From NCBI RefSeq assembly GCF_028609885.1, contig NZ_CP063195.1:1178001-1242000 (forward strand): 64,000 bases of DNA, written 5' to 3'. The DNA comes from Corynebacterium jeikeium (GTDB lineage: Bacteria; Actinomycetota; Actinomycetes; Mycobacteriales; Mycobacteriaceae). This document shows positions 13,372-57,817 of this stretch, in pieces; the stretch's first letter is position 1; each line of letters starts with the position of its first letter. The notes under the pieces are model-generated. The model was not told the origin of the DNA and searched no databases. It saw only the letters and a program-made list of their open reading frames with translations. The position numbers and the translations under genes are program-made.

Positions 13372-14355
13372 CTACTCCCCCGTCTCCCGAGCGCTAAACG
13401 TCGGGCGGCCAGCCAGTGGCTCCTGCTGCCCGCGCGCCCACGCTGCGGCTTCCATCATCTTCTTGCCCGGCGGCTGGATGCGCGTGATCTCTAGCGGTTC
13501 GGTGCCGGTGCCGACGAAAACCTTTTTTGGTGACGCCACCACCTCGCCAGCACCAAGCTCGCCTACCTCCGCAGAATCACTTGGTAGCAGCATGCCGATC
13601 TTGTATCGCTGGCCGTCCAGCAGGGTCCACGCACCGGGTGCCGGAGTGTGGGCGCGGACTACCCGCTGAATCACCTCGGCTGGCTGCGACCAATCAATCT
13701 GCGCATCAGCAGAGTGAATCTTCGGCGCGTGGGTGGCCTGGGTGTCGTCCTGCGGAGATAGCACAGCATTTCCCTCGTCCATGTCGACAAGAGTATCGGC
13801 CAGTAATTCCCGGCCGGCGTAGGTCAGGCTGGCTAGCAGGTCGTCAGCTGTGTCCTCCACGCCGATTGGCTGGCTTAGCTGGGCGGCGACGGGGCCGGTG
13901 TCCAGGCCCTGCTCGATACGGAAGATAGAGGCGCCGGTGGCTTCGTCTCCCGCAGCTAGGGCGGCCTGCACGGGCGCGGCGCCACGCCAGCGAGGCAACA
14001 ACGAGTAGTGCAGGTTTACCCAGCCGTGTTCGAAGACGTCGAGGATGTCGACGGGAATCAGGTTGCCGTAGGCTACGACCGCGGCTGCAGTGACCCCCTC
14101 TGCAGCGAGGTCGTTCAGTACGCCGCGGGCCTCGTCACCAGATTCAGAACCAGCCTTGAGGCTCGGCCATTTGTAGGTAGGGATGGCGGCTTCTTCAGCG
14201 ACCTCCGCGACCTTCGACGGGTGGAGGTTACGACCGCGCCCTCTCTTGGCGTCCGGTTGGGTAATGACCGCAACGACCTCGAGACGTTCGTCAGCGATGA
14301 GGTGCTCGAGAGCCACGGCGGCCGGCTCCGGGGTTCCGGCAAAGACGATTTTCAC
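13372..14355 (-). CDS. fmt: Methionyl-tRNA formyltransferase
   Basis: Fmt formylates the initiator Met-tRNA using 10-formyl-tetrahydrofolate. The 327-residue protein starts MKIVFAGTPEPAAVALEHL and has the formyl-transfer signature HYSLLPRWRGAAPV followed by IGVEDTADDL, then the C-terminal OB-fold domain that grips tRNA. The GTG start at 14355 overlaps the def stop by four bases (GTGA), the conserved def-fmt coupling. GGAG lies upstream. A copy of the dispersed GGCGTCA/A-run motif falls in its C-terminal part (13523-13537). Confidence 0.97.
   Translation of the reverse strand: MKIVFAGTPEPAAVALEHLIADERLEVVAVITQPDAKRGRGRNLHPSKVAEVAEEAAIPTYKWPSLKAGSESGDEARGVLNDLAAEGVTAAAVVAYGNLIPVDILDVFEHGWVNLHYSLLPRWRGAAPVQAALAAGDEATGASIFRIEQGLDTGPVAAQLSQPIGVEDTADDLLASLTYAGRELLADTLVDMDEGNAVLSPQDDTQATHAPKIHSADAQIDWSQPAEVIQRVVRAHTPAPGAWTLLDGQRYKIGMLLPSDSAEVGELGAGEVVASPKKVFVGTGTEPLEITRIQPPGKKMMEAAAWARGQQEPLAGRPTFSARETGE
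13523..13537 (-). repeat. GGCGTCA/A6 bipartite motif copy (in fmt)
   Basis: Read on the minus strand: GGCGTCA, two bases, six A, then GG. In fmt it is translated through Ala-Ser-Pro-Lys-Lys using TCA and AAA codons. See the finding on this motif. Confidence 0.6.
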
Positions 14356-14858
14356 TGTTTAAACCACTCCGATTCGCGGATCTGCTTCATTGCTTCGCGA
14401 CGCTGTTCAGCTGAAAGGTGCTGGATAAACAATGTGCCGTCCAGGTGGTCGGTTTCGTGCTGCACACAGCGGGCCATAAGGTCCGTGACCTCGCGGTCAA
14501 CTTGCTCACCGTCGACGGTCACCCCACGCAGGCGCACACGCTGGGCGCGGGTCACGTCTCCGTGGACGTCTGGGATCGAAAGGCACCCCTCGCCGCCGGT
14601 TTGGGTCTCATCGCCCACTGCCTCCCAGGTGGGGTTGATCACGTGGCCGCGGTCGCCGTCGCAGTCGAAAACAAAGATGCGACGGGTGATGCCGATCTGG
14701 TTGGCAGCCAAGCCCACTCCCCCGTAGTGATCCATGGTTTCTAGCATGTCCTCGACTAGTCGCCGAGTTGCAGCATCTTGAATCTGTTCTGGCTTGACGG
14801 GGTCCGCGACGGTTTTGAGCACCGGATCCCCGAAGTAGCGCATGTTAAGCACGGTCAT
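14352..14858 (-). CDS. def: Peptide deformylase
   Basis: Def removes the formyl group from nascent proteins. The 168-residue protein carries all three family motifs: GVGLAANQ (47-54), EGCLSIP (90-96, metal ligand Cys92) and HETDH (134-138). ATG at 14858 gives MTVLNMRYFGDPVL and has GGTGG seven bases upstream. An open frame continues upstream to 15131 but is out-of-phase priA sequence. Its stop overlaps the fmt start by four bases, and it begins 11 bases after priA, so priA-def-fmt is likely co-transcribed. Confidence 0.96.
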   Translation of the reverse strand: MTVLNMRYFGDPVLKTVADPVKPEQIQDAATRRLVEDMLETMDHYGGVGLAANQIGITRRIFVFDCDGDRGHVINPTWEAVGDETQTGGEGCLSIPDVHGDVTRAQRVRLRGVTVDGEQVDREVTDLMARCVQHETDHLDGTLFIQHLSAEQRREAMKQIRESEWFKQ

Positions 14859-14869
14859 GTTTATCCACC

Positions 14870-16933
14870 CTATCCGATGCGCACGGGATCCATGACAACC
14901 CGCAAGGCCTCCGGCTGGGCCGTGCGAGAGCCCCGGTGAATGGTTCGCACCGACTGGGCGCTGCGCAGCGCCTGGCCGAGGGCGATCCGTTGGTCGGCCG
15001 GTACGCGCACAAGCAGCCGCCGCGCGGACTGTCTGGCCTGCGGGTCGTGGGCGTCGATACCCGCAGGCAGGCGCACTCCGGGCGGTAGCTCCACCGGGCC
15101 CAGCGTCTCCGCCCCATCCGGCAAGTCCCACGCAGCCTCGAGTGCCTCAATAGCTGAGGTAGTGCCATCGATGGCCGCAACACTAAAGGCGGGTGGGAAC
15201 GCAGCCTCGGCCCGATGTGCCAACTCCGCGCGCGCGGATCCCACTGGATCCCACCGGATCAGCTGTTGGGCCGTCGGCAGGTTCGCCGCTCCAGCAAATA
15301 CCACCTTGCCTCCCCGGCTCCGCGGGGCTACAAGAGCGGCGGCCTCCATCCAGTGCCGCAGCGCCGTCTCTGCTGCACGAAGGTCCTGCCTGCCTAGTAG
15401 GATCCACGGGTCCACCAAGATTGCGGCACCGTACAAGCCGCCTTCCACGGCGGGTTCTGCACCGGGGGTCGCCACGACGATGCTCTTTCGTGGCCGTACG
15501 CTATCCACCACGTGCTTGCCGCCGCTGGCGATGATTGGTACCCCAGGGAACGCCCGTCCCAGTTCTTCCACCGTTCGGTCGTGGCCGATAACCGACAGGC
15601 GCACACTGTGGTTGCCGCAGGTTACACACGTGAATAGCCCTGCGGTTTGCCCGCACCACCGGCAGCGCGGTGGAGCCGCCTCGGCGCTCGTGGGCAACTC
15701 CAACGGACCATTGCAGTGCCTGCAGCGTGCGGGCGTGCGACATTTCGCACACGCCAGCGCGGGAGCATATCCCCGCCTCGGAACCTGTACTAGCGCTGGC
15801 ACGTCCTTGTCCACACACTCGCGCAGAGCCTCGAAACCCATGGACGGAATACGCGCCCCGGGCGCATGCAGCTCCCGCTCCGTCGCACTATCGGTTTCCC
15901 CCAGACCCCGAATCCACGGCATCGCCTCGTGCGACGCCTCCCGCGTGGGCAGCAGCGGATACACCAGCTTGCTATCCACCCACTGCTGCACCTCGGCCGA
16001 GCGGTGCACTCCAGCGATCAAGAGCCCAGCCCCGGTGTGCTGAGCGTGCAGCGCCAGTGCCTCCCGCGCGTGGATGTACGGGGCGCGCGGATCCACCAGG
16101 TTGTCATCGGCCTCGCCCACCAGGACCATTAGGCGGGGCGAGACTACTGGCAAGAGCGCTGCAGAGCGAGTGCCCACCACCACGCGCGCCTGGCCCGCGA
16201 GTACCGAAAGGTAGCGGCGATAACGCGCATTAGGCCCCACCTGTGCGGTTAGCTCCATCACCTGTGCTGGGTTCATGTGCTGCTTCAACCCCGCCACCAG
16301 GCGATCCACAAGGCGTTGGTTAGGGGCCACCACCAACACACTGCCCTGCGTGTTCCAAGCCACGGCAGCGGTAATGGCCGCGATGAGGGTGGGGATGTCG
16401 CGGCCTGGGGGCGTCAACAAACAAGCCCGCGCGGCCTTGCCCTCGACGAGCGCCGACAAGTACGCCGCGCCATGAGTGTAGGGCGCCAGAGCCTCCTCGG
16501 CGGCGGCATAGGAATCGCTGGCCGCCTGTTCGACCGACTGCAGCTTGGCCCCGAGATCCTCCCACGCCGCTCCATCGGCGAACAACCCCGCGTTCTCCGC
16601 CGAGGCGTGGCGGGAGGGAACGACAGAGCGCAGAATGTCCGAACGCACGCCCGCGTAGCGCTCCGCCAGGGTGTTTACAAGATCCCACAAAGGCTTCGGC
16701 AGCACCTGGATGGGGCTTATCACGCGCTCCAGCTGCCGTAGCTCGCCGGGGTGGTCGCTTCGGCGGCGGCGCTCAATGACGAAAGCATCGACCAAACGTC
16801 CTGAAAAACGAACGCGGACGCGCACACCCGGCTGGGCATGCGCGTCCATGTCTGCGGGCACCGCGTAGTCGAAAAGCCGGTCCAGGTGCGGCACGCCGAG
16901 CATCGGCAGTACGCGGGCGACGGGCTGGTCCAC
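14870..16933 (-). CDS. priA: PriA-like primosomal protein lacking helicase motifs
   Basis: PriA restarts stalled replication forks. The 687-residue protein keeps the N-terminal 3'-DNA-binding domain (FDYAVP, RFSGRLVDAFVI) and a zinc region of four CxxC pairs (CAKC, CRHC, CRWC, CVTC, about residues 400-455). The Walker A is replaced by LTPPGRDIPTLIA and the DEEH box by GEADDNLV. Actinobacterial PriA proteins are known to lack helicase motifs, so this is probably a structural loader. The start is GTG at 16933, 12 bases after metK. The translation is intact, with no frameshift. Confidence 0.93.
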   Translation of the reverse strand: MDQPVARVLPMLGVPHLDRLFDYAVPADMDAHAQPGVRVRVRFSGRLVDAFVIERRRRSDHPGELRQLERVISPIQVLPKPLWDLVNTLAERYAGVRSDILRSVVPSRHASAENAGLFADGAAWEDLGAKLQSVEQAASDSYAAAEEALAPYTHGAAYLSALVEGKAARACLLTPPGRDIPTLIAAITAAVAWNTQGSVLVVAPNQRLVDRLVAGLKQHMNPAQVMELTAQVGPNARYRRYLSVLAGQARVVVGTRSAALLPVVSPRLMVLVGEADDNLVDPRAPYIHAREALALHAQHTGAGLLIAGVHRSAEVQQWVDSKLVYPLLPTREASHEAMPWIRGLGETDSATERELHAPGARIPSMGFEALRECVDKDVPALVQVPRRGYAPALACAKCRTPARCRHCNGPLELPTSAEAAPPRCRWCGQTAGLFTCVTCGNHSVRLSVIGHDRTVEELGRAFPGVPIIASGGKHVVDSVRPRKSIVVATPGAEPAVEGGLYGAAILVDPWILLGRQDLRAAETALRHWMEAAALVAPRSRGGKVVFAGAANLPTAQQLIRWDPVGSARAELAHRAEAAFPPAFSVAAIDGTTSAIEALEAAWDLPDGAETLGPVELPPGVRLPAGIDAHDPQARQSARRLLVRVPADQRIALGQALRSAQSVRTIHRGSRTAQPEALRVVMDPVRIG

Positions 16934-16945
16934 GGTGCTTTAAAC

Positions 16946-18181
<1,236 letters not shown>

Positions 18182-18229
18182 GTGGTTGTTCCTTTTTTAG
18201 GTTCGAATTGCTGGGGAATGTTGAGTCAA

Positions 18230-18256
18230 TAGACAGATACTAGACCAAGCTGTCTG
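18230..18256 (-). promoter_or_regulatory. Predicted McbR operator at metK
   Basis: TAGAC-N6-GTCTG (18241-18256) matches the McbR consensus TAGAC-N6-GTCTA at nine of ten positions. A second TAGAC half-site (18230-18234) lies 11 bases away in direct orientation, one helical turn apart. The full site begins 60 bases upstream of the metK start codon. McbR is the TetR-type repressor of sulfur amino-acid genes in C. glutamicum; the match here is my reading. Confidence 0.75.
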
Positions 18257-18266
18257 TATTTGTCAC
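18237..18266 (-). promoter_or_regulatory. Predicted metK promoter
   Basis: On the minus strand, a -35-like GTGACA (18261-18266) and a -10-like TAGTAT (18237-18242) are 18 bases apart. The McbR site fills the spacer and overlaps the -10, a classic repression geometry. The transcript would start near 18230, giving a leader of about 50 bases. Confidence 0.55.
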
Positions 18267-18274
18267 GTAGTTGC

Positions 18275-19531
18275 CTAGTGAGTTTCGCACACTGCTCTCC
18301 AAATGGCTGCAGCGACCCCGGTCTTCGGACCTTCTGGCACCTCGGTGACATCGCCGTTAGGTCGCAGAATCCACCCCGAGCTATCCGGCTGCCCAAAGAC
18401 TTTGCCCTCGCCCACGGCGTTGCACATCAGCAGGTCGCAGCCCTTCTTCTTAAGCTTTTTACGAGCAAGGTCGAGTGGAGAGTTGTTTTCGTCACCGGTC
18501 TCTGCCGCAAAGCCCACGATCTTTGTTGTGGACGCCACGTCTCCCTGCCTCCGCGCCTCAACCACACCCGCGAGGATGTCCGGGTTCTCGGTCAGCTTAA
18601 TCGTAGACAGGTCGGCCTCCGAGTCCTTCTTCATCTTGGACTCAGCCACTTCTGCCGGCCGGTAATCGGCCACCGCCGCAGCCATGACCACAACGTCGGC
18701 AGAAGGGGCGTGTTCCATTACTGCCTGCTGCATTTCGCGGGCAGTCTTCACACGCACCAATTCAGCGCCGATGGGAGTGGGCAGGTTCTCGGTGACACCA
18801 GCGACGAGCGTGACTTCAGCGCCCCGCTGGGCGGCAACCTCGGCCAGCGCATAGCCCTGGCGGCCGGAAGATGCGTTGCCGAGATAGCGCACAGGATCCA
18901 GCGGCTCGTGCGTGCCGCCGGCGCTAATAACGACTTTCTTGCCCTCTAAGTCACGGGTGAAGGCCTCGCGATCTGCTAGGACGGTAAGTGCCAGTTCGCC
19001 GATCTGCTCCGGCTCCGGCAGCCGCCCAGCACCTGTATCCTTGCCGGTCAGTCGCCCGTGGGCGGGGTCTAGCACCGTTAGGCCGTGGCTGCGCAGCGTA
19101 GCAACGTTGTCAACGGTCGCCGGGTTCAGCCACATCTCGGTGTGCATCGCTGGAGCGAGCACTACGGGGCACGTGGCAACCAGGCAACTAGCGGTAAGAA
19201 GATCATCCGCGCGCCCGTGGGCGATCCGGGCCATCAGGTCCGCAGTGGCTGGGGCAACGACGATCAGGTCGGCCTCCTGCCCCAAACGGACGTGCTGCAC
19301 CTCGTCCACAGCATCGAACACATCGGTGGCTACCGGCTGCCCCGAGAGCGCCTCAAAGGTCGCGGCACCTACGAAGTTCAGTGCCGAGCGGGTGGGAATC
19401 ACCCTCACCTGGTGGCCGCGCTCCGTGAAGTAGCGAACCAGGTGGGCGGCCTTATACGCAGCAATGCCGCCCCCTACGCCAATGACGACGCGGAGCGGCT
19501 TGGTGTTCAATTCAGCTGATGCAACGTTCAC
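18275..19531 (-). CDS. coaBC: Bifunctional phosphopantothenoylcysteine decarboxylase/synthase
   Basis: CoaBC joins cysteine to 4'-phosphopantothenate and decarboxylates the product in coenzyme A synthesis. The 418-residue protein has the flavin-binding CoaC half first (GVGGGIAAYKAAHLVRYF, and PAMHTEMW at 127-134). The CoaB half follows, with SAGGTHEPLDPVRYLGNASSG. PAMHTEMW instead of the enterobacterial PAMNxxMW is the usual actinobacterial form. The start is GTG at 19531, 20 bases after rpoZ, with no strong ribosome site. The order gmk-rpoZ-coaBC-metK is conserved in actinobacteria. Confidence 0.96.
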   Translation of the reverse strand: MNVASAELNTKPLRVVIGVGGGIAAYKAAHLVRYFTERGHQVRVIPTRSALNFVGAATFEALSGQPVATDVFDAVDEVQHVRLGQEADLIVVAPATADLMARIAHGRADDLLTASCLVATCPVVLAPAMHTEMWLNPATVDNVATLRSHGLTVLDPAHGRLTGKDTGAGRLPEPEQIGELALTVLADREAFTRDLEGKKVVISAGGTHEPLDPVRYLGNASSGRQGYALAEVAAQRGAEVTLVAGVTENLPTPIGAELVRVKTAREMQQAVMEHAPSADVVVMAAAVADYRPAEVAESKMKKDSEADLSTIKLTENPDILAGVVEARRQGDVASTTKIVGFAAETGDENNSPLDLARKKLKKKGCDLLMCNAVGEGKVFGQPDSSGWILRPNGDVTEVPEGPKTGVAAAIWRAVCETH

Positions 19532-19551
19532 AACGAATCAGCCTAGCTGGT

Positions 19552-19842
19552 TTAACCCTCGGTGTGTTCCAACAGATCCCGGTTAATCTCGCGCAGAGCG
19601 ATGGACAGCGGCTTCTCGTGAACGTCCGGAGTCACCAGAGGCCCGACAAACTCGAAAACGCCCTCGTCGACCGTCTGGAAGTAATCGTTGATCTGACGTG
19701 CGCGCTTAGCAGCGAAGATAACCAAGGCGTACTTGGAGGAGACCTTCGTCAGCAGCTCATCGATCGGTGGATTGGTGATGCCTACAGGAGGATCGAACAC
19801 GCTCTCGTTCGCATTCACGTCCTGGTTTTCCACGGTATTCAC
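19552..19842 (-). CDS. rpoZ: RNA polymerase omega subunit
   Basis: Omega helps fold and stabilise the beta' subunit of RNA polymerase. The 96-residue protein has the conserved core [20 protein letters not shown] followed by [13 protein letters not shown] list GTG at 19842, but AAAAGG is better spaced for a second in-frame GTG at 19833, which would shorten it by three residues. It lies between gmk (111 bases upstream) and coaBC. Confidence 0.93.
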
Positions 19843-19953
19843 CTTTTCTTTGGTGGGTTGTTTGATTATTTATTTAGTTCTTTAAAGCGCGGGACTGAAG
19901 TGTGCCGCTGAAGCCTTCAGGCAGCATGCGCCTTCTGAGTCTTCTATGACCAC

Positions 19954-20520
19954 TCAGCGAAGAATCTCACTGATTGCTGCCACGGCCTTATCCACGTCGT
20001 CGTTCACGACCACGTGGTCGAACTCGGACTGCGAGGCCATCTCAACCTTAGCGGTCTGCAAACGGCGCTCGATGACGTCCTGAGTCTCGGTTCCGCGGCC
20101 CGTCAGGCGGTCAACAAGCTCCTCCCACGATGGCGGAGCCAGGAAGACTGTCTGCACCTGAGGCAGCATCTTCTTGACGTTGCGTGCCCCCTCGAGGTCG
20201 ACCTCGACGAGTACCGGGCGGGAGTCGGCAAGAGCCTTTTCGATAGGTTCGCGCGGTGTGCCGGAAAGCTGTAGCCCTCCGTGGATCTCCGCCCACTCGA
20301 GCATCTTGTCAGCTGCGATGTTCTGTTCAAACTGTTCGCGGGTGACGTAAATGTAGTCCTCGCCATCAACCTCGCCAGGTCGCGGGTCGCGGGTGGTCAT
20401 GGACACACTGAAAAACAGGTCCGGAACATCGGTGCGCAGACGCCGCACGACGGTGGACTTCCCTACCGCCGATGGGCCCGCAAGAACGACGATCCGTCCG
20501 CTATTCAGGTCCTGGCTCAA
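19954..20520 (-). CDS. gmk: Guanylate kinase
   Basis: Gmk phosphorylates GMP to GDP. The 188-residue protein has the P-loop GPSAVGKS (15-22), the GMP-binding [19 protein letters not shown] stretch and EWAEIHGG. The start is a TTG at 20520, two bases after the mihF stop, with GAGGAA upstream inside mihF, so translation is probably coupled. The length and motifs are normal. The neighbourhood mihF-gmk-rpoZ is typical for the phylum. Confidence 0.96.
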
Positions 20521-20522
20521 GA

Positions 20523-20843: not shown

Positions 20844-20892
20844 GGGTGCCTCCGTTAATTTTTCTCTCGTCTTAAAGGATGGAAAGTTTTCT

Positions 20893-20920
20893 GGTCTATA
20901 ACCAGCATGCTGTAGAGACC
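20893..20920 (-). promoter_or_regulatory. Dyad in the mihF leader
   Basis: A 10-base palindrome CAGCATGCTG is flanked by GGTCT on one side and AGACC on the other, giving an imperfect 28-base dyad 50 to 78 bases before mihF. It could be an operator, perhaps for autoregulation, or a 5'-UTR hairpin. Confidence 0.45.
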
Positions 20921-22045: not shown

Positions 22046-25407
<3,362 letters not shown>

Positions 25408-26662: not shown

Positions 26663-26677
26663 TTTTTTAGTGACGCC
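26663..26677 (-). repeat. GGCGTCA/A6 bipartite motif copy (pyrC-carA gap)
   Basis: On the minus strand: GGCGTCA, two bases, six A, then G. It is intergenic, so coding constraint cannot explain it. It lies about 40 bases before carA. Confidence 0.6.
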
Positions 26678-30998: not shown

Positions 30999-32075
30999 CT
31001 AAACGACGATCAGTTCCGTCGGCGAGGCGTTGAAGCTACGCGCTCCGTCGGCGGTAATGACGTAGGTGTTTTCGATGCGCAGACCCGTCTTACCAGGGAT
31101 GTAGATGCCCGGCTCGACCGTCACGGTCATGCCTTCTACTAGCTCTTTTTCAGGATTGACGCCCGCCGCTGCCCGCGGGGCCTCATGCACGTCGAGGCCT
31201 ACGCCATGCCCCGTGGAGTGCACGAAAAACTCACCATAGCCAGCCTCGGTGATCACGTCGCGGCAGGCGGCATCCACGTTGCAGAGCGCCACTCCCGGGG
31301 CCAAGATCGCCTCGCCGGCTTTCTGAGCGCGGTAGACCACGTCATAGAGTTCGCGGGAAAGCTCGTCGGGCTCCCCCACGCACACAGTGCGGGTCTGGTC
31401 GGACGCGTATCCGTCCAGGTATACGCCGAAGTCCACGGTCACGAGTCCGGGGACAATCGTTTCGCGGGAAACACCCGCGTGCGGTTTGGTGGCATTTAAA
31501 CCGCTGGCCAGAATCGTCTCGAAGCTCAGCCCATCGGCTCCCGCGGTGCGCAGCTGGAACTCCAGCTCCGCTGCCGCCTGGATCTCTGTAATACCCTCGC
31601 GGATACCGTTGTCCTCGATGAATGAGCGCCACACGCTATCGGCTAGTTCACCTGCGGCGGCCAAGGCCTCGATCTCCAGCTCGTCTTTAACCAAGCGTAG
31701 ATCCTCCACCACCGAGTCCAGTACTGGCGGGTTGCCCAGCGTTCGGGCCTGGCCATATTCCAAGCCGGGTTCCACGGCGAAGTCCTTCCCCGCAAACTCG
31801 GCTGCGCGGTCGAACAGCTTTCCGCCGATCTCGATTGTGATGTCTTCCGGCTCGCCGGTCTCCAGGCGGATCTGGGTATCGTAGCGACCGTCGGTCAGCA
31901 GGAGGTGCTGGCCGTCTTCGCGAACCACCATAAGCGCGTTGGAACCAGAGAAACCGGTCAGATAGCGGACGTTCTTCAGGTCACTGATCAACAAGGCTGC
32001 GTGTGCCGAGGCCTGGATCTTTGCTGTCGCCTTGTTACGGCGGGTGCGGTAGGCGTCAAAAAACTTTTCAGACAT
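30999..32075 (-). CDS. pepQ: Xaa-Pro dipeptidase / aminopeptidase P-like (M24)
   Basis: M24 metallopeptidases cleave X-Pro bonds in the cytoplasm. The 358-residue protein has a creatinase-type N-terminal domain and a pita-bread catalytic domain. The metal ligands are visible in [41 protein letters not shown] and GLRIEN. ATG at 32075 has AAGGAGA upstream. It follows aroQ after 21 bases and is closed by a strong terminator. The exact specificity (dipeptidase or aminopeptidase) cannot be read from sequence. Confidence 0.92.
31146..31163 (-). repeat. GGCGTCA/A5 bipartite motif copy (in pepQ)
   Basis: On the minus strand: GGCGTCA, six bases, five A, then G, coding Gly-Val-Asn-Pro-Glu-Lys. The spacing is looser than in the best copies. 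Confidence 0.4.
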
Positions 32076-35625: not shown

Positions 35626-36081
35626 TTAACGGAAGATTAATGACGCCGCCACCACTGCCCCCGTCGCCACCAACATCGCCGGGCCGTGGGGGCTGGCCCT
35701 GTCGGCGTCTGCTCTTTGCCCTCCGCGAAGGAAACAGTGCATCACACCGCTCAAACCCAGCGCAGCAACGGTGCCGAACGGAGCGACAATTGCGGCCAGT
35801 GTTCCCGTCGTGAGCGCGAGCTTCGCATCCCCGCCACCCGCTATCAGCCGGGGGTGCAGCAGCGGAAGCCCAAAGGCCACCGCCCACCAGGCCACCCCGC
35901 CGAGCAGAGCCCAGTGGTTTGCGCCCGGCATAGCTAAGGGCACGAGCCCAGCAGCGGGTATGGCGGGAAGGGTCAGATAGTTCGGCAAGCGGGAGGTGCG
36001 GGCGTCAATAAGAAAAAGGGCGATAGCCCACGGCAGGAAAGGTAACAGCGGCCACCAGGAAAGAAACGGGGTTGCATTCAC
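35626..36081 (-). CDS. Small prepilin-peptidase-like A24 aspartic protease
   Basis: This 151-residue membrane protein has several hydrophobic segments and the two catalytic aspartate motifs of the A24 family: DARTSRLPN near residue 27 and GGGDAKL near residue 84. It lacks the N-terminal cytosolic methyltransferase domain of full-length type IV prepilin peptidases. Such short forms process Tad/Flp-type prepilins in other bacteria, but no pilus genes lie in the window. The start is GTG at 36081, with no clear ribosome site. It sits between aroC and aroE, and the substrate is unknown. Confidence 0.82.
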   Translation of the reverse strand: MNATPFLSWWPLLPFLPWAIALFLIDARTSRLPNYLTLPAIPAAGLVPLAMPGANHWALLGGVAWWAVAFGLPLLHPRLIAGGGDAKLALTTGTLAAIVAPFGTVAALGLSGVMHCFLRGGQRADADRASPHGPAMLVATGAVVAASLIFR

Positions 36082-38397: not shown

Positions 38398-38865
38398 TTA
38401 GGAAAGCGCGCGCCGCCGCGTGTCTAACCACCCCTGCAGAATATGTACTGCTGCGGCCTGGTCGATCTTCTTTCTGCCTTTTTTACTATTGACGCCGGAG
38501 GCGTGAAAAGCCTGCGTAGCGGCCATCGTAGACATTCTTTCGTCCACCATGCGCAGTGGAATATCCGGCAATTCCTCTTTAACCAGCCGCGCAAATTCCT
38601 CTGCATTCAGGGTGCTTTGTGTATGGTTTCCGCGCAGTGCAACCGGTAGGCCCACCACAATCTCCACCACGAAATTCTCCCGGCAGATCTCCGCCACACG
38701 CTGTACATCCGCGTCGTCCGCGGTGGCCTGAACGGTCTCCACGGGTGTGGCGAGGATGCAGTCCGGGTCCGAGATCGCCACTCCAATGCGCACGGTGCCT
38801 ACGTCGAGGCCGAGCCTCCGCCCGCGGCCGGGGTCGGTGGCTGGATCTGGCTTCTCGGTCTGCAT
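38398..38865 (-). CDS. ruvX: Putative Holliday-junction resolvase / pre-16S rRNA nuclease YqgF
   Basis: YqgF/RuvX proteins have an RNase H-like fold; in E. coli YqgF trims the 5' end of 16S rRNA. The 155-residue protein has RLGLDVGTVRIGVAISD with Asp21, EIVVGLPVALRG, and DERMSTMAA with a further acidic ligand, then the C-terminal KKIDQAAAVHILQGWL. ATG at 38865 lies 21 bases after alaS. A copy of the GGCGTCA/A-run motif lies near its 3' end, coding GVNSKKG. Confidence 0.94.
   Translation of the reverse strand: MQTEKPDPATDPGRGRRLGLDVGTVRIGVAISDPDCILATPVETVQATADDADVQRVAEICRENFVVEIVVGLPVALRGNHTQSTLNAEEFARLVKEELPDIPLRMVDERMSTMAATQAFHASGVNSKKGRKKIDQAAAVHILQGWLDTRRRALS
38479..38496 (-). repeat. GGCGTCA/A6 bipartite motif copy (in ruvX)
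   Basis: On the minus strand: GGCGTCA, five bases, six A, then GG. The reading frame uses AAT, AGT, AAA and AAA, all AT-rich codons in a GC-rich gene. Confidence 0.6.
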
Positions 38866-50057: not shown

Positions 50058-50086
50058 GAGGTGATTGGGGTATTGATTACGGCGAA

Positions 50087-52225
50087 TTAGATCTTCAGCA
50101 GGTCGCGGGCCCACTTCGGCAGGATATGGGTCGGAACACCACCGTTGTTCTGTACCCATGCGATGGCCGTAGCACCACCGATGATCAAGGCTAGGATGCC
50201 CAGGATGGCGCCGATGATGCCGCCGGTGGAGGAACCAGATAGGGAGCCTTCTGCACCCGTGTTCTCGTCCGACGTTGCACCGCAGCCACGATCGACGTCA
50301 AGCTTGCCTTCGACGGAGATTGGGTAGTTCAGCTCGGAGCCAGCGTCGGTGGTGATCTGCAGGAACGCGGCTTCTTCCGGAACAGTCAGATTGACGGTGG
50401 CCTTACCGGTTTCGTCAAGACCATCGGTGACCGTATTGTCCATCTCCGCGGAAGCTTCGCCGACGGTGACGGCCTTCTTGCCCTCGCAGCGCAGGAACTT
50501 CGCAGTCGCCGTGGTCGGCTTTTCTTCCTTGCCGGTGTAGCTCAGGGAGCTGAGGTTGACGGTGACGTCCTTCTTCGGAGCCAGCACGCTGCTGTTCAGA
50601 GCCTTGTCGGTCGCCTTTGCCTCCTCCACGGCCGCGCCGGACAGCTTTACGCCGACGGAGGTCTGGTTCGGGCGAACGGCGATGTCCTTATTGTCCTTCA
50701 GGTAGCGGTTGAACACATCGATGTCCATCTGGCCCGCGTCCTGGAACTTGCCGCCCTTGAATGCATCAAAACTGTCACCACCGTTCAGCAGGAAGCTGGA
50801 CCCGGCCACGCGGTACTTTTTGCTCGGGTCAAGAGGCTTGCCATTGACGGAAACGTAGGTGATGCGCTTGCCCTGCTCGGCATCCGGGTCGTATGCGTAC
50901 TGCACGTTCTTGGACAAGCCCAACGCCAGCATTGCGCGCTCCCCGCCCGGCTTCCACTGCTGTTCGAGGGCCTGCTTCAGCTGCTCACCGGTGATCTCCA
51001 CAACACCAAGGGAATTGCCAAAAGGCTGAACTGCGAAAGCCTCTGCGTAGGTCACGTCACCCGAGGCCAGGTCAGCGCGGACGCCACCAGCGTTCATCAC
51101 GCCCAGGTCGGCCTTCAAGTCGGTCAGCTTGTTAACGCCGTACAGGGTGGCGTCCGCAATCATGGAGTTCAGGGAGGACTCGGTACCGCGGTTACCGCCG
51201 GATTCGCCGTCGGAGTTTGCGCCGCGGTAAAAGTCGTTCTTCAGGGTGGTAACGACCTTTTCGCCCTCGGTTTTCGCCGATTCCTTTGCCGCGGAAACGA
51301 TCTTCGCCACGTCCTCATCCGGGGTGTCGCCACAAACGTCCCTCATGTCCTTTGCCGTACGGTTCTCGGCGGTGACGGACACAACCTTCTTGGCCGCCTT
51401 GTCGTAAACGATGTCGATGTCGGCCAGATCCATGCCGTAGTTGGCCGGCTGCACCAGCACTGGCTTACCGTCGAGCTTGCGTAGCACATGGGTGTGGCCG
51501 GCAATAACTGCGTCCACGTCCTGGGAGAATTTAGTGTTGTCCATCCCCTCATGCACCAGGCCGATGACTACGTCCGCCTCACCAGATTCCTTCAGTCGCT
51601 TGGCTTCTGCGTTAGTCGCAGCCACCGGTTCGGAGAAGCTGAGGCCTTGGATGCCGTCCGGAGAAACCAGGTTCGGGGTGTCCGCAGTAATGGTGCCGAC
51701 GTATCCGATCTTCACACCGCCTTTTTCGATAACCGTGGACGGCGCCATGTCGCTTCCCTTGACGTTGGCACCCAGGTAGGGGAACTTCGCATCCTTGTCG
51801 CCGTTAACACCTACGCGATCCTTCAGGTCTGACCACCCCTTATCGAACTCGTGGTTACCCACGGCGGAAGCCTCTAGTCCCATGGCGTTCAACGCATCGA
51901 GGGTCGGCTTGTCCTTCAGAATGGAGGACTCGAAGGGAGAACCACCGATGTTGTCACCTGCGGATACGAAGCTGGTGTTCGGGTTGCCTTCGCGTTCCTT
52001 GTTCACGTAGCAGGCCATCACGGCCGCGCCGGGCTCGATGATTTCTCCCTTGCGATCCTTAGCCTGGGATAGGTGGCCGTGGAAGTCGGTGACGCCGATG
52101 ATGTTAAGACTAACCTGGTCAGCCTCGGCGGCGTACGCGGGAACATTCAGCCCCGCGAGGGCCAGGGTCGGCGCCATGGCCAGGGTCATGACGGCACGGG
52201 AACTGCGGCGAGACAGCTTGAACAC
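50087..52225 (-). CDS. Secreted 5'-nucleotidase / UDP-sugar hydrolase family protein
   Basis: This 712-residue UshA-like enzyme would release nucleosides and phosphate outside the cell. It has a signal peptide (AYA near 33) and a metallophosphoesterase domain with DFHGH (47-51), GDNIGGSPFE, GNHEFDKGW and GHTHVL. The 5'-nucleotidase C-terminal domain has MNAGGVRADLASGDVTYAEAF and FGNSLGVVEITG. A further beta-rich domain precedes a C-terminal membrane helix and a 21-residue tail containing LPKWARDLL. GTG at 52225 has GAGGAG nine bases upstream; an open frame reaches 52339 but adds non-signal sequence. Its leader holds a palindrome. Confidence 0.93.
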   Translation of the reverse strand: MFKLSRRSSRAVMTLAMAPTLALAGLNVPAYAAEADQVSLNIIGVTDFHGHLSQAKDRKGEIIEPGAAVMACYVNKEREGNPNTSFVSAGDNIGGSPFESSILKDKPTLDALNAMGLEASAVGNHEFDKGWSDLKDRVGVNGDKDAKFPYLGANVKGSDMAPSTVIEKGGVKIGYVGTITADTPNLVSPDGIQGLSFSEPVAATNAEAKRLKESGEADVVIGLVHEGMDNTKFSQDVDAVIAGHTHVLRKLDGKPVLVQPANYGMDLADIDIVYDKAAKKVVSVTAENRTAKDMRDVCGDTPDEDVAKIVSAAKESAKTEGEKVVTTLKNDFYRGANSDGESGGNRGTESSLNSMIADATLYGVNKLTDLKADLGVMNAGGVRADLASGDVTYAEAFAVQPFGNSLGVVEITGEQLKQALEQQWKPGGERAMLALGLSKNVQYAYDPDAEQGKRITYVSVNGKPLDPSKKYRVAGSSFLLNGGDSFDAFKGGKFQDAGQMDIDVFNRYLKDNKDIAVRPNQTSVGVKLSGAAVEEAKATDKALNSSVLAPKKDVTVNLSSLSYTGKEEKPTTATAKFLRCEGKKAVTVGEASAEMDNTVTDGLDETGKATVNLTVPEEAAFLQITTDAGSELNYPISVEGKLDVDRGCGATSDENTGAEGSLSGSSTGGIIGAILGILALIIGGATAIAWVQNNGGVPTHILPKWARDLLKI

Positions 52226-52321
52226 TTTGGGTTTCTCCTCGTTGAAACGAATCACTAAAGGTTGCGCAGCAAAGGCGTGCTGCAACGAAGGAGAGCTAAC
52301 CACCGTTACTTGTTCTTGTCC

Positions 52322-52337
52322 GCGCAATCCATTGCGC
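52322..52337 (-). promoter_or_regulatory. Palindrome upstream of the 5'-nucleotidase
   Basis: GCGCAAT and ATTGCGC form a perfect 7+7 dyad around two bases, 97 bases before the GTG start. The size and symmetry suit a dimeric repressor or activator. It is unlike tandem-repeat PhoR boxes, so phosphate control cannot be claimed. Confidence 0.5.
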
Positions 52338-52399
52338 AAATCACGCTGCGACCAGGAACTTCATGCAAAGTAATGGAAGTATTAAACTTTAATTCACCA

Positions 52400-52429
52400 A
52401 AAATACCCCCGCGTAGTGTTACGCGAGGG
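52400..52429 (-). terminator. Terminator after hisS
   Basis: CGCGTA and TACGCG, extended by C and G runs, enclose GTGT; on the minus strand TATTTTT follows. It lies 47 bases after the hisS stop codon and isolates hisS from the secreted enzymes. Confidence 0.8.
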
Positions 52430-52475
52430 TACAGATGTGACCGGTGTTACTTCGGTCTTAAGCTCAGCCGTTCTA

Positions 52476-53807
52476 CTAGGCGTGGGCAGCCCTATCTGCC
52501 GTCTTCTCCGCCAGCAGCTCTACGACGGCAGCCAGGTCCACCTCGTGCTGCTCGTGTGCGCCGAGGTCCTTCACCGTCACCGTCCCCTCAGCCAGCTCCT
52601 TATCGCCCAGTACCAGGGCATACAGCGCACCCGCACGGTCGGCCCCCTTCATGGCTCCCTTCAGCCCGCGGTCACCGTAGGACATATCGGCGGACACGCC
52701 GCGCTCACGCAGGTCATCCACGATGCCCACCATGCGCCGCTTGGCCTCTGCGCCCAGTGCCACGCCGTAGACATCAACCCTTCTTCCTGTTGACGCCCTC
52801 TTCTCCTCCGCCTCGAGAGCCAGCAGCGCCCTATCGACTCCCAGCCCGAAGCCGATGCCAGACAGGTCCTGCCCGCCCAGTTGAGCCATCAGGCCGTCAT
52901 AACGTCCACCGCCACCAATGCCAGACTGCGCACCCAGGCCATCGTGGACAAATTCGAAACAGGTCTTCGTGTAGTAATCCAAGCCGCGCACCATCCGCGG
53001 GTTGATGGTGTAGCCCACGCCCAAGTCATCCAGCAGCCCGGTCACGGTTTCGAAGTGCTCGCGGGACGAATCACTGAGGTGGTCCAGCATCAAGGGAGCC
53101 TCGGCCAGCATCTCCTGCATCTCAGGGCGCTTATCATCCAGTACACGCAGCGGGTTCAGCTGCGCACGGCGCTGCGTCTCCTCATCCAACGGCAGCGTGG
53201 CCAAGAAGTCCTGCAGCTTCTGCCGGTAGGCGGGGCGGTCGTCCCAGTCACCGAGGCTGGTCAGCTCGAGGCGGAAGCCGTTCAGACCAATGGAGCTAAA
53301 GCAGCGGTGCGCCAACGCGATAACCTCGGCGTCCAGCGCCGGATCGTCCACGCCGATGGCCTCCACGCCCACCTGCTGCAGTTGGCGGTAGCGGCCGGCC
53401 TGCGGACGCTCGTAGCGGAAGAAGGGGCCATTGTAGACCAACTTGACGGGTAGCTGCCCGCGATCCAGGTTGTGCTCGATGACGGCACGCATGACGCCCG
53501 CCGTGCCCTCCGGCCGCAGGGTCACCGAACGGCCGCCCCGGTCGGCGAAGGTGTACATTTCCTTCGACACAACGTCGGTAGATTCGCCAACGCCACGGGC
53601 AAACAGAGAGGTCTCCTCGAAGATCGGCAGCTCCACGTGCTCGTAGCCTGCGGCGTGCGCGGCGGAGGTGAACGCATCCTTGACCGCCTTAAACTCCGCC
53701 GATGTCGGCGGCACGTAGTCCGGCACGCCCTTCGGCGCGCTGAGCGCCTTAAACTTCTCGGCCTTGGCCTTTTGGGGCTTCTGTTGCTTCTTCTCGCTCT
53801 CAGTCAC
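52476..53807 (-). CDS. hisS: Histidyl-tRNA synthetase
   Basis: HisS charges tRNA-His. After a lysine-rich start of about 20 residues, the 443-residue class II enzyme has [68 protein letters not shown], and the histidine motifs [19 protein letters not shown] and GGGGRYDGL. An anticodon domain ends it. GTG at 53807 has no ribosome site; a -10-like TAGACT lies about 12 bases upstream, so leaderless translation is possible. A perfect 15-base palindrome fills most of the 22-base gap to the hydrolase gene. Confidence 0.96.
52781..52797 (-). repeat. GGCGTCA/A-rich bipartite motif, degenerate copy (in hisS)
   Basis: On the minus strand: GGCGTCA, three or four bases, then GAAGAAGGG instead of a pure A run. 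This is the weakest of the sense-strand copies. Confidence 0.3.
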
Positions 53808-53808
53808 A

Positions 53809-53823
53809 AGTAGACAGTCTACT
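53809..53823. promoter_or_regulatory. Perfect 15-base palindrome at the hisS start
   Basis: AGTAGAC-A-GTCTACT lies two bases upstream of the hisS GTG and 7 bases after the upstream stop. It contains TAGAC and GTCTA, the half-sites of McbR, but separated by one base instead of six. It could be an operator over a leaderless promoter or a short mRNA hairpin. Confidence 0.5.
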
Positions 53824-53829
53824 AAACGG

Positions 53830-54504
53830 CTATTGCACTGCCGCCAGGAAGCTATTGGTGCGCTTTTCTTCCCCGATGGTCGTGTGCGGGCCGTGCCCCG
53901 GCAGCACAATGTCCTCGTCATCGAAGTCGGTGGTTAGCTTCTTGAGGCTCAGCATCATGTCCTCGGGCGAGCAACCCGGAAGATCGGTGCGCCCCACTCC
54001 TCCACGGAACAGCACATCGCCGCCGAAGATGAGCCCATTCACGCGGAACATGACATGCCCCGGTGAGTGGCCTGGCATGTGGTGGATCTCGAACTCCGCA
54101 CCGCCAATGCTGATGGAATCCTCCAGGTGACGAATGTTCTCAATCGCCGGCATGTTCGCAACGTCGAAGGGCTGCGCCAGCGGGCTGGCCGCCTGATCCA
54201 TTTCCAACATGAAGCGGTCCAGCTCGTGGACGTACACCGGCACCCCAAATGCTCCCGCGTCGCGAATGTGGTCGATATGTCCGTGGGTCAGCACGACCTT
54301 TTCCACGAAAAACTTGTGCTCCTCGGCGAGCCTTTGGATGTTCTCGAACGCACCCAATCCCGGGTCTATAACGACCGCCGGGGAGCTCTCCCCGCTATTG
54401 GCGTCAGAACCATCAATCACCACATAGCAATTGGTTTCGAAAGGGCCAGCAGGAAAAGAAAGGACCTGCGTCGTATCCGGCAAGGGGGTTGCGTCTGTGC
54501 TCAT
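53830..54504 (-). CDS. MBL-fold hydrolase (glyoxalase II-like)
   Basis: This 224-residue metallo-beta-lactamase-fold protein has the metal motif THGHIDH (73-79), [30 protein letters not shown] and the final [13 protein letters not shown] with conserved histidines. These resemble the small glyoxalase II-like hydrolases found next to hisS in many actinobacteria. ATG at 54504 gives [12 protein letters not shown]; an open frame continues 15 codons upstream without a conserved start. It is divergent from the cyclophilin and precedes hisS by 22 bases. The substrate cannot be told from the sequence. Confidence 0.9.
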
Positions 54505-54616
54505 GCCACAAACCCTAGCGAAAACACCAACGAGCCCGTGCCCCTTCACCCGAATCGGCCAGTATATAGGGCATAATGGATCACCGTATCTAGCACAAGA
54601 AAGGTCCTAGAAAAAC

Positions 54617-55480
54617 GTGTCAGACAACAACTACCCGAACGAGGCCCAGCGCGACCAGGCACTGTCGGAGCTAGAGAAAGCTCTGAAGTCCCGCGAGCGC
54701 AAGGCCAAGATCGCACCGCTGGGCGTGGTAGCCGCAACACTCGCCGTGCTGGTGCTCATCGTGGGCGGCATCTGGTTCGCCGCCACCTACACCTCCAACG
54801 AGGATGAAGATCAAGTCGCTGAGAGCGAGCAGCAGACTGAAGAGCCGGACGTAAAGCCCGCGGCGCTACCGGCAGGCCCTAAGGAGCCTTACGGCGAGAC
54901 CGTGAAGTGCGAGTACAAGAAGGACCCGCAGGGCAAGCTCAGCGAGGCCGGGCTGCCTGACGGCAACAACGTAACCGCCAAGGGAACCGAAAAGGTCACC
55001 TTGACCATGAACGGCCAAAAGGTTGGCTTGGAGCTGGCCAACGACAAGTCCCCGTGCTCCACCAATTCCTTCAAGCACCTGGTGGAGAAGAAGTTCTACG
55101 ACTCCACCAAGTGCCACCGCTCTGTGAAGTCCGATTCCATGACCATCCTGCAGTGCGGCGACCCTGAGGGTACTGGCGCAGGCGGCCCGGGCTACTCCTT
55201 CGCAGATGAGTACCCGTCCAACGGCGTGGACAAGGACAAGGCCGACTCCCCGGTCACTTACAAGCGCGGCACACTAGCCATGGCCAACAGCGGACCGGAT
55301 ACCAACGGCAGCCAGTTCTTCCTGGTCACCGGTGATACCACCCTGCCGCCGAGCTACAACATCTTCGGCACCATCGACGAGGCCGGCCTGAAGGCACTGG
55401 ACAAGCTGATGGAAAAGGCACCTGAAGGTGATGCGGCCCCGAATGAGGACATCAACATCGAATCCGCAGTACTGGGTTAG
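54617..55480 (+). CDS. Membrane-anchored cyclophilin-type peptidyl-prolyl isomerase
   Basis: This 287-residue PPIase would assist folding of exported proteins. It has a basic cytoplasmic start, one membrane segment (about 33-57), an acidic linker (about 60-85) and a cyclophilin domain with the signature NSGPDTNGSQFFLVTGDT and a C-terminal PPSYNIFGTIDEAGL. The start is GTG at 54617. A -10-like CATAAT lies around 54571-54576. The two cysteine pairs in the catalytic domain are typical of exported actinobacterial forms. It converges on rel across a perfect hairpin. Confidence 0.93.
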   Translation: MSDNNYPNEAQRDQALSELEKALKSRERKAKIAPLGVVAATLAVLVLIVGGIWFAATYTSNEDEDQVAESEQQTEEPDVKPAALPAGPKEPYGETVKCEYKKDPQGKLSEAGLPDGNNVTAKGTEKVTLTMNGQKVGLELANDKSPCSTNSFKHLVEKKFYDSTKCHRSVKSDSMTILQCGDPEGTGAGGPGYSFADEYPSNGVDKDKADSPVTYKRGTLAMANSGPDTNGSQFFLVTGDTTLPPSYNIFGTIDEAGLKALDKLMEKAPEGDAAPNEDINIESAVLG

Positions 55481-55486
55481 ACAACT

Positions 55487-55509
55487 CGGCTAGCCTTCAG
55501 GGCTAGCCG
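55487..55509. terminator. Bidirectional hairpin between cyclophilin and rel
   Basis: CGGCTAGCC and GGCTAGCCG form a perfect 9-base stem with a TTCAG loop. The stem includes the rel stop codon and starts 7 bases after the cyclophilin stop. It would serve both converging genes, though neither side has a long T-run. Confidence 0.65.
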
Positions 55510-57770
55510 CCCGTCGTGACACGGTAGACGTCGTAGACACCTTCGACGTTACGCAGCTGGTTCATCATGTAGCCCAGCTGCTTTGTGTCCGACACCTCGA
55601 AGGTAAAGCGGATCGTCGCCACCCGGTCGCCCGCGGTGTGCGAATTAGTGGCGATGATCGGCACCTTCTGATCCGAGATCACGCGCGTGACCTCAGAGAG
55701 CAAACCGTTGCGATCCAGACCCTCGATCTGGATCGTGACCATAAACACTGCATTGTGGAAGCTGCTGGCCCACGAGACTTCAATAATCCGCTGCGGCTCT
55801 TGGTGCAGCTTCTCGGCGTTGGTGCAGTCCGTACGGTGCACGCTTACGCCCCCGCCCTTGGTGATAAACCCAAAGATCTTATCGCCCGGCACCGGGGTAC
55901 AGCACTTTGCCAACTTCGCGGAGAAATCGGCCTCGCCCTGCACCAGAATGCCGGAACCATCGCCACGGCCTTCCTGCGGAGTATTCGCGATCTTAGAAGT
56001 CGCAGAACCAGACTGTAGAACGTCATCGGCCTCCGACTCTGGCTCCAGCCCCTCTACAAAGCGATTGCAGACGTGCCCGGCCGTAACCTCTCCCCGGCCA
56101 ATAGCAGTGTAAAGCGCCTCGACATCCTGGTAGTTCATGTCGCTGGCCAGCAGGCGCAGGGATTCGTGGGTAAAGAGACGATGCACCGCCAGGCCACCCC
56201 GCTGTGCTTCCGCGGCCAGCAGATCGCGGCCCTTCTCCGCTGCTTCCTCGCGCCGCTCCTTGGCGAACCACTGCCGGATCTTCGCCTTCGCTCGCGGCGA
56301 GACGACAATACTCATCCAGTCCTTCGATGGCCCGGAGTTTTGATCCTTGGAGGTAAAGACCTCCACCTTATCGCCGGTGTTCAGCTTGGATTCGAGCGCC
56401 ACCAGCTTGCCGTTGACCTTCGCGCCAATACAGCGATGGCCGATTTCCGTGTGCACAGCGTAGGCAAAATCAATCGGCGTGGATCCGTTCGGCAGGGTGA
56501 TGGCATCGCCCTTTGGCGTGAACACGAAGATCTGGTTGGTGGACAGGTCGTAACGCAGTGAGTCCAGGAACTCGTTTGGATCCGCTGCCTCCTTCTGCCA
56601 GTCCAGCAGCTGGCGCATCCACGCCATTTGGTCCACTTCTGCAGACTCGCTGTTGTTGTTGCCGCGGGTTTCCTTGTACCGCCAGTGCGCCGCAATGCCG
56701 TATTCGGCGTTGTGGTGCATCTCGTGGGTGCGAATCTGCACTTCCAGGGGCTTGGTGTCCGGGCCTATCACGGTGGTGTGCAGCGACTGGTACACGCCGA
56801 AGCGTGGGGAAGAAATATAGTCCTTAAAACGCCCCGGCATCGGCTGATAGAGGGTGTGAATGGCACCGACTGCCGCGTAGCAATCCTGCACACTATCCAC
56901 CAGAATGCGCACACCCACCAGATCGAAAATCTCGTCAAAGTCGCGTCCGCGCACGATCATCTTCTGGTAAATCGACCAATAGTGCTTCGGGCGGCCCTCC
57001 ACCGTGGCGTGCAGCGAACTGCGCGACATTGCCAGCTCGATCTCCTGCTTCACCTTCGCCAGGTACTGGTCGCGCTTCGGGGCACGGTCGGCAACCAGGC
57101 GCACGATCTCGTCGTACTTCTTCGGGTAGAGGATGGCGAAGGCAAGGTCCTCCAGCTCCCACTTGACGGTCGCCATGCCCAGGCGGTGGGCCAGCGGGGC
57201 AATCACCTCAAGAGTTTCGCGTGCCTTCTTCGCCTGCTTTTCCGGTGGCAGGAAACGCATAGTGCGCATGTTGTGAAGGCGGTCGGAGACCTTGATCACC
57301 AGCACGCGCGGATCCTCGGCCATAGCGACGATCATCTTACGGATGGTTTCTGCCTCCGCCGCAGACCCCAACACAACTTTGTCTAGCTTCGTCACGCCGT
57401 CCACGAGGCGGGCGACCTCACTGCCAAAGTCGCGGGAAAGATCCTCCAGGGAGTAATCCGTATCTTCCACCGTGTCGTGTAGCAGCGCTGCCACCACGGT
57501 GGTTGTGTCCATGCCAATCTCCGCGGCGATGGTCGCCACCGCCAGCGGGTGCGTAATGTACGGCTCGCCGGACTTGCGCTTCACGCCCTCGTGCAGCTTC
57601 TCGGCGGTAGCGTAGGCGCGGTTCAACAGGGCGAGGTCAGCGCGTGGATGAAAGCGCCGGTGCACGGAAATGAGCGGCCCCAGTACAGGGTTGATCTTTG
57701 GCTTTCCGGTGCCGGTGAGGCTTCGCGCAATGCGAGCCGCCATCCACAGCGAACCCTTCTCGTTGCTCAT
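55503..57770 (-). CDS. rel: Bifunctional (p)ppGpp synthetase/hydrolase Rel
   Basis: Rel makes and degrades (p)ppGpp in the stringent response. The 755-residue protein has an HD hydrolase domain (His74, His98-Asp99 in [10 protein letters not shown]), and a synthetase domain with [18 protein letters not shown] and [24 protein letters not shown] domain near 430-490 ([22 protein letters not shown]), a zinc-finger-like region with [10 protein letters not shown], and a C-terminal ACT domain follow. ATG at 57770 lies 74 bases after apt; this gap holds a copy of the GGCGTCA/A-run motif. The secD-secF-lipoprotein-apt-rel order is the known corynebacterial arrangement. Confidence 0.98.
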
Positions 57771-57803
57771 AGCCGCTTAAAGTCCTGCCTGTTTCTTCTC
57801 TTC

Positions 57804-57817
57804 TTTTTATTGACGCC
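57804..57817 (-). repeat. GGCGTCA/A5 bipartite motif copy (apt-rel gap)
   Basis: On the minus strand: GGCGTCA, two bases, five A, then GAAG. It is intergenic, about 34 bases before rel, and so is free of coding constraint. Confidence 0.55.

Follow-up and report, generated by a model that had tools for sequence, protein, structure and literature searches.

The window analysed here is a stretch of 64,000 nucleotides of the Corynebacterium jeikeium chromosome (positions 1178001-1242000 of a single 2,524,840-base contig), whose minus strand holds nearly all the predicted genes. A bipartite word, consisting of GGCGTCA and a neighbouring run of A residues, is scattered over these genes and the gaps between them, and is the subject of this report. 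Its copies lie in or beside fmt, pyrC, carA, apt, rel, hisS and ribD (with rpe), all of which match NCBIfam models above cut-off, as proposed in the first-pass annotation of this DNA. They are also found in rarA and pepQ, whose matches stay below the curated cut-offs, and in two genes, formerly named ruvX and A24 peptidase, which we see as open reading frames (ORFs) only. The nine copies with an A-run listed in that annotation, six on the minus and three on the plus strand, are all present in the sequence (Table 1). A looser copy reported in hisS does comprise GGCGTCA but has no A-run, as no A5 is found within 8 bases.

Table 1. Copies of the word in the window (window positions) and their state in five sister genomes.
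Feature	Positions	Strand	Location	State in sister genomes
GGCGTCAGCAAAAA	11114..11127	+	ribD start / ribD-rpe boundary	GGCGTCA in 5/5
GGCGTCACCAAAAAA	13523..13537	-	inside fmt (TIGR00460)	GGCGTCA in 5/5, A-run variable
GGCGTCACTAAAAAA	26663..26677	-	pyrC-carA gap	GGCGTCA in 5/5
GGCGTCAATCCTGAAAAA	31146..31163	-	inside PepQ/aminopeptidase-like gene	GGCGTCA in 5/5, A-run broken there
GGCGTCAAAAAA	32052..32063	+	start of PepQ-like gene	GGCGTCA in 4/5, altered in G206
GGCGTCAATAAGAAAAA	36001..36017	+	inside ORF 35626-36081 (formerly A24 peptidase)	GGCGTC in 5/5; base 7 = A, A, A, C, G
GGCGTCAATAGTAAAAAA	38479..38496	-	inside ORF 38398-38865 (formerly ruvX)	present in 5/5
GGCGTCACAAGTAAAAAA	42223..42240	-	inside rarA	GGCGTCA in 4/5, GGCGTCC in G146
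GGCGTCA without A5 within 8 bases	52791..52797	-	inside hisS	
GGCGTCAATAAAAA	57804..57817	-	apt-rel gap	GGCGTCA in 4/5, AGCGTCC in G204

The window contains 36 GGCGTCA (16 plus, 20 minus), nine of which have AAAAA within 8 bases. The stricter GGCGTCA-N2-6-A5 gives 12 overlapping matches at eight places, whereas dinucleotide shuffling, repeated 100 times, yields 0.04 on average. The earlier count of A/T runs by eye is also borne out, as five of the ten runs of at least six bases adjoin GGCGTCA (13523, 26663, 32058, 38479 and 42223).

In the genome as a whole, the word is present in hundreds of copies, far above chance. As a control pattern we used the reversed word and, for genes, also a null obtained by shuffling synonymous codons. 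GGCGTCA-N(0-8)-AAAAA occurs 155 times as overlapping matches (54 forward, 101 reverse), against two (2, 0) for the reversed pattern, and GGCGTCA alone 1260 times, against 569. Further statistics were obtained from a sample of 844 kb, comprising 39 evenly placed 20-kb stretches and the window; stretch L050 was excluded because of a tandem repeat inside it. In this sample, GGCGTCA is the commonest 7-mer before AAAAA (49 of 437 copies, 11.2%, for a background of 0.39%), followed by its overlapping neighbours GGGCGTC (37/297) and TGGCGTC (30/254). In a gapped-word search over 780 kb, GGCGTCnnnAAGAA was found 61 times for 1.0 expected, and only words of a repeat of the CRISPR type (clustered regularly interspaced short palindromic repeats) rank higher. 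Since an iterative weight matrix drifted to general coding periodicity, explicit words were used instead, and a site was defined as GGCGTC[AC] with at least six A residues in the next 14 bases, counted without overlap. The 844 kb contain 233 such sites which, scaled to 2.52 Mb and reduced by the fifth expected under the null, correspond very roughly to 600 copies per genome. Over 40 stretches, the density amounts to 5.55 sites per 20 kb (reversed control, 0.48). It rises with GC content (rho 0.74) and codon typicality (rho 0.50).

That selection acts on the DNA word is strongly supported. The first-pass annotation had named as findings that would speak against its proposal a frequency no higher than in codon-shuffled genes and a lack of conservation where the protein permits change, and the opposite was observed on both counts. 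Genes contain 29 GGCGTCA..A5, while 60 rounds of synonymous-codon shuffling gave 1.33 on average and never more than 3; GGCGTCA alone was observed 341 times for 158 expected. When the genes in 264 kb of contiguous sequence surrounding the window were tested, 57 copies of GGCGTC[ACG] followed by six or more A residues in 14 bases were observed for 10.7 expected (maximum 15, 20 shuffles), whereas GGCGTC as such is under-represented (231 for 323.4 expected). The excess is thus tied to the A-rich neighbour.

For these 264 kb, an alignment was made with G146, which has diverged furthest among the five sister genomes; it covers 258 kb at 83.1% identity. In it, 93 of 134 GGCGTCA (69%) are unchanged, for a 7-mer mean of 32%, and the word and its complement rank fifth and sixth for conservation among the 3092 words with at least 50 copies. 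GGCGTC is retained at all 34 A-rich sites and, of the 60 words that its letters can form, it is the one most often kept (63.5%, for 39.5% overall). Its retention climbs with the number of A residues in the next 14 bases, up to 42 of 42 sites with at least seven. Within genes, 160 of the 192 fourfold-degenerate positions inside the word are unchanged, where 103.1 would be expected from the same codons elsewhere. As synonymous positions are held beyond this codon-matched expectation, the selection is on the DNA, with the protein indifferent. Base 7 is altered in about a quarter of the sites, and the constrained unit can be described as GGCGTC, then A, C or G as base 7, two unconstrained bases, AA and an A-rich stretch, the A-rich part being about 10 bases long. 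The closing G of the motif as originally drawn is not constant.

With regard to orientation, 121 of the 233 sites lie on the leading strand (p = 0.60) and 117 on the plus strand. Relative to the predicted genes, 77 sites are in sense and 89 in antisense orientation, and the other 67 lie outside. Since there is no replichore or gene-strand preference, the word is an element of double-stranded DNA. In a strict A5 subset, the leading strand is favoured (33/49), but this does not hold in the larger set. The placement on the coding strand, proposed earlier, is therefore a local effect of the minus-strand genes of the window, and of the proposed selection on DNA or RNA, the DNA part stands while the RNA part finds no support in the sense and antisense counts. 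Nor is it necessary to see the plus-strand copies as coding coincidence, as GGCGTC has been retained in all five sisters at 11114 and 36001, and in four of them at 32052. The gene calls come from a simple gene finder and are approximate: the real ORFs 35626-36081 and 38398-38865 were missed, and the number of copies outside genes is thus too high. With a laxer gene cut-off in the contiguous 264 kb, 89% of the sequence is coding and 10 of the 34 A-rich sites lie outside genes, the copy at 36001 still being wrongly among these 10. Within genes, the frames in which the word is read are unequal.

From the origin outwards, the density is 5.9, 4.5 and 6.1 sites per 20 kb, without a steady gradient towards the terminus. 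The sign of the GC skew switches at about 1.15 Mb of the 2.52-Mb chromosome, which places the window close to the likely replication terminus. The spacing of sites with at least five A residues in 14 bases has a coefficient of variation of 0.71, and none of 880 control 7-mers is as evenly spaced.

Two of 41 stretches (L050 counted), L060 and L065, are devoid of any site at the cut-off used. L060 (1,847,001-1,867,000) is a prophage, in which 4 of 10 scanned proteins match portal (Mu-type), Clp-protease, ERF and YqaJ families. L065 (2,162,001-2,182,000) is rich in insertion sequences (IS), with 4 of 10 scanned proteins matching transposase families (Mutator-family and rve/HTH_21-type). The word is thus missing from recently acquired DNA, of which few regions were sampled. 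The transposases of L065 flank an ornithine/lysine monooxygenase and ABC transporters.

The word was then surveyed in 242 Corynebacterium genomes, with kinship ignored and most counts compared with the reversed word, a control that ignores codon structure and can mislead, and on which the genus-wide tabulation rests. The genus pattern (GGCGTCRNNAAG, 0-1 base, AA) gives 9030 matches, against 476 for the control. By the cut chosen, the word is clear in 161 genomes, weak in 21 and low in 60; G111 and G265 are low by this cut, yet rich in GGCGTCG..A5. Related species exhibit dialects, in which GGCGTCA or GGCGTCG is followed by NNAAG(C)AAAA. GGCGTCA..A5 has 140-158 overlapping matches in six close species, including the one studied here, 53 in G180, 40 in G033 and 27 in G071 (controls 4, 4 and 8), and at most 13 in the others. 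GGCGTCG..A5 has 54-287 matches in 11 genomes, and GGCGTCG is the top 7-mer before the A-tract in G033 (21/129) and G180 (16/122). A third form, GGCGTCGNNAAGC(G)AAAA, marks G076, where the pattern is found 70 times, against none for the control. The change of dialect can be followed at individual copies of the window. The place aligned to the copy at 26663 reads GGCGTCGGTAAAAAG in the distant G033, which is the other dialect, and the copy at 38479 reads GGCGTCAATACAAAGAAG in that genome. The copy at 11114 corresponds to GTGGCGTCGTGAAAAAAA in G180 and GTGGCGTCGGCAAAAAAA in G033, both of the G dialect. Among eight sites retained between dialect groups, a small sample, base 7 has switched from A to G in six.

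Codon shuffles were also made on samples of nine genomes (40 shuffles each, 20 for the C. jeikeium genome), and back the word in eight of them, each in at least one form; G066 is not convincingly above the null. For G146, each of the three forms tried is above the null. The A5 form is mainly what exceeds it in G033 (13 vs 1.3), and is the only one to do so in G015 (7 vs 0.3) and G180 (7 vs 1.0). In G076, the excess is confined to the NNAAG forms (NNAAG-AA 6 vs 0.1), and in G029 and G072 to the plain NNAAG form (7 and 6, respectively, vs 1.0). In 11 Corynebacterium loci (L117 left aside), GGCGTC[AG]NNAA is above the codon null (24 vs 8.5, maximum 16), the A-count forms do not exceed it, and the longer NNAAG-AA form is found in none of all 12 loci.

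Outside the genus, the codon null is not exceeded by any form in 68 loci (1.32 Mb) from other genera of actinobacteria, Micrococcus not among them; the observed and expected numbers are 45/37.4, 127/141.1, 42/45.0 and 7/6.1. Compared with the reversed control, GGCGTC[ACG] with 6 of 14 A residues seems in excess in these loci (47 vs 13), while another form does not (51 vs 49). This apparent excess is due to codon structure, as 42 are observed for 45.0 expected under the codon null. In 24 genomes of other genera of the order, the A form is found one to three times in five and is absent from 19.

A word that is frequent, free in orientation, strongly conserved, dispersed within genes, absent from new DNA and variable in dialect has the same profile as the uptake sequences known from Neisseriaceae and Pasteurellaceae. 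We therefore consider it to be a self-recognition word of Corynebacterium, most likely a DNA uptake sequence, a function which we infer and to which we would give an even chance. In this view, GGCGTC and the adjoining A-tract on double-stranded DNA would be recognised by a receptor at the cell surface, for which a minor pilin of the Tad/Flp pilus is the most plausible candidate, and DNA of the same kind would enter via ComEC and then recombine. Biased uptake and recombination would spread and repair the word, and such a drive could give rise to many orientation-neutral and mutation-resistant copies, few or none in freshly acquired DNA, and dialects specific to lineages. The receptor, uptake and drive steps are all proposals. 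The fuller proposal, in which a Tad/Flp minor pilin would read an uptake sequence peculiar to Corynebacterium that has three or more dialects and an origin independent of the Neisseriaceae and Pasteurellaceae, is more tentative and falls somewhat short of an even chance.

With regard to possible machinery, the C. jeikeium genome has, in addition to ComEC, a tad cluster at L068:4237-9087 (about 2,355,237-2,360,087). It encodes TadA, an ATPase matched above cut-off, together with a T2SSF protein, a DUF4244 protein, which is likely to be the Flp pilin, two TadE-like proteins, only one of which reaches the curated cut-off, and an Ssd/CpaE-like protein that does not reach it. The TadE-like proteins, encoded on the minus strand at L068:4237-4560 and L068:4593-4901, are candidates for the receptor. 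Three strict copies of the motif are located within or beside this cluster. In the genus, ComEC is found in 241 of 242 genomes and T2SSF in 233. A precedent exists in the actinobacterium Micrococcus luteus, to which C. jeikeium is similar in having comparable tad genes, and whose transformation requires tad genes and ComEC (PMC4322843); the text of that paper gave no match to 'uptake sequence' or 'specific DNA'.

The uptake signal sequences (USS) of the Pasteurellaceae have AT-rich flanking tracts and are evenly spaced. Haemophilus influenzae has about 1300 copies, and its terminators are often formed by a pair of oppositely oriented USS (PMC5217627). USS dialects diverge between species, and a minor pilin has been predicted as the receptor (PMC12616744). 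The Corynebacterium word resembles USS in being a short word with many copies and species dialects, but differs from it in its core, in the Gram-positive phylum, in the lack of enrichment of inverted pairs, and in that uptake is only deduced here. The DNA uptake sequences (DUS) of the Neisseriaceae are present in thousands of copies, and their eight dialects follow the phylogeny (PMC3630211). Their receptor is the minor pilin ComP, and the DUS itself, GCCGTCTGAA (PMC6370729), has few letters in common with the Corynebacterium word. The DUS system relies on a type IV pilus, whereas Corynebacterium has at most a Tad/Flp pilus, with candidates only for the receptor.

Several observations weigh against an uptake function. 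The evenness of spacing depends on the cut, with coefficients of variation of 0.77, 0.71 and 0.86 at 4, 5 and 6 A residues, for which 2, 0 and 42 of the 880 controls are as low, and inverted pairs of the word are not enriched in the sample of the C. jeikeium genome. Between dialect groups, the hexamer at GGCGTCA sites is retained at only 5 of 14 places in G033 and 3 of 12 in G180, rates that are not clearly above those of three control words (2/39 to 14/43 and 4/47 to 7/44, respectively). As ComEC and T2SSF are nearly universal, they are permissive rather than diagnostic and leave the 60 motif-poor genomes unexplained. Moreover, four of the nine genomes without a T2SSF match clearly carry the word, namely G202 (100% complete), G226 (90%), G199 (87%) and G218 (53%). 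No or one T2SSF match is found in 20 of the 60 motif-poor genomes and in 29 of the 182 others (Fisher p = 0.005, kinship ignored), an association which is weak and counts G111 as motif-poor though it is rich in the G dialect. Finally, searches of the open-licence literature, covering mainly titles and the openings of abstracts, revealed neither competence nor an uptake sequence for Corynebacterium. A published spaced-motif scan gives, in the part available, CRISPR words for three Corynebacterium species and no word beginning with GGCGTC (PMC5217627).

The main rival explanation is that GGCGTC and its A-tract are bound at numerous positions by an intracellular chromosome-organising or nucleoid-associated protein, which folds the chromosome or anchors it. 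This would fit a GC core flanked by an A-tract, as well as the dispersal, the orientation neutrality, the conservation, the lack of an origin-terminus gradient and, at some cut-offs, the even spacing. However, the 68 loci of other genera show no excess, so that either such a protein or its specificity would need to be confined to Corynebacterium, and 60 of the 242 genomes within the genus are themselves word-poor by the cut chosen. The weak point of this explanation is the existence of dialects since, in the absence of a spreading mechanism, hundreds of sites would have had to change one by one. We regard it as a serious but rather unlikely alternative.

Chi is a frequent asymmetric word, and Chi words are short and have no A-tract; within RecBCD, RecC is the reader of Chi. 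A Chi-like recombination word, read by a helicase-nuclease such as AdnAB, would agree with a word that is frequent, asymmetric and dispersed, and that is absent from the prophage and the IS-rich stretch. It appears improbable, as the Corynebacterium word is longer than Chi, bipartite, provided with an A-tract and, in the larger set, devoid of strand bias. RecBCD-Chi itself was rejected, since RecC (PF04257) has no match in any of the 242 genomes, the E. coli control being positive.

A role in segregation or division, as an FtsK-orienting polar sequence (KOPS), a matS-like word or a nucleoid-occlusion site, is very improbable. The frequency and asymmetry of the word and the leaning of the strict subset to the leading strand would suit it, but the 233 sites have neither the polarity that had been suggested for an FtsK-like function nor a density gradient, and KOPS and matS or terminus words were rejected on these results. 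Equally improbable is an RNA-level element or terminator, in which an A- or T-tract and a hairpin would act in transcripts. By eye, a few copies do lie in hairpin-prone sequence (e.g., at window 36001 and 38490), but most are within genes. A coding-strand or RNA role was rejected on the sense and antisense counts, terminator pairs were rejected for lack of enriched inverted pairs, and Rfam at gathering scores gave no match in the window or L050. A by-product of codon or peptide usage, or chance, has a negligible probability: GGCGTC does encode common residues, its frames are unequal and the excess over the reversed control in other genera is fully explained by codon shuffling, but the C. jeikeium genome is far above the codon null and synonymous positions are conserved beyond the codon-matched expectation.

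If the word is an uptake sequence, many Corynebacterium species would be naturally transformable now or would have been so recently, and natural transformation with self-recognition would exist in a genus whose members include commensals of the skin, pathogens and industrial producers of amino acids. DNA is usually delivered to Corynebacterium by electroporation. An uptake sequence would provide a direct genetic tool and a barrier rule for gene exchange between species, as well as one more independent case in which selection and drive can be weighed as the origin of such words. If the site is instead architectural, this lineage would possess a chromosome-organising word of its own, and the protein that binds it could be sought. 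In either case, the strength of the constraint, with GGCGTC kept at 34 of 34 A-rich sites at 83% identity, makes the question of function testable.

About 41 copies of a CRISPR-type repeat (GGCTCATCCCCGCT...) were seen in the sampled stretches L031-L070 of the C. jeikeium genome. It resembles the CRISPR consensus quoted for C. jeikeium and C. urealyticum in PMC5217627. In the excluded stretch, a block of 5,294 bases is tandemly repeated at L050:3966-14709 (about 489,966-500,709), with two gene sets seen, each of which comprises a LysR-type regulator, a class A beta-lactamase-like protein, a penicillin-binding-protein transpeptidase and a helicase-like ORF. Three copies of the motif are present there at intervals of 5,294 bases. 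The repeat looks like an amplified beta-lactam resistance locus.

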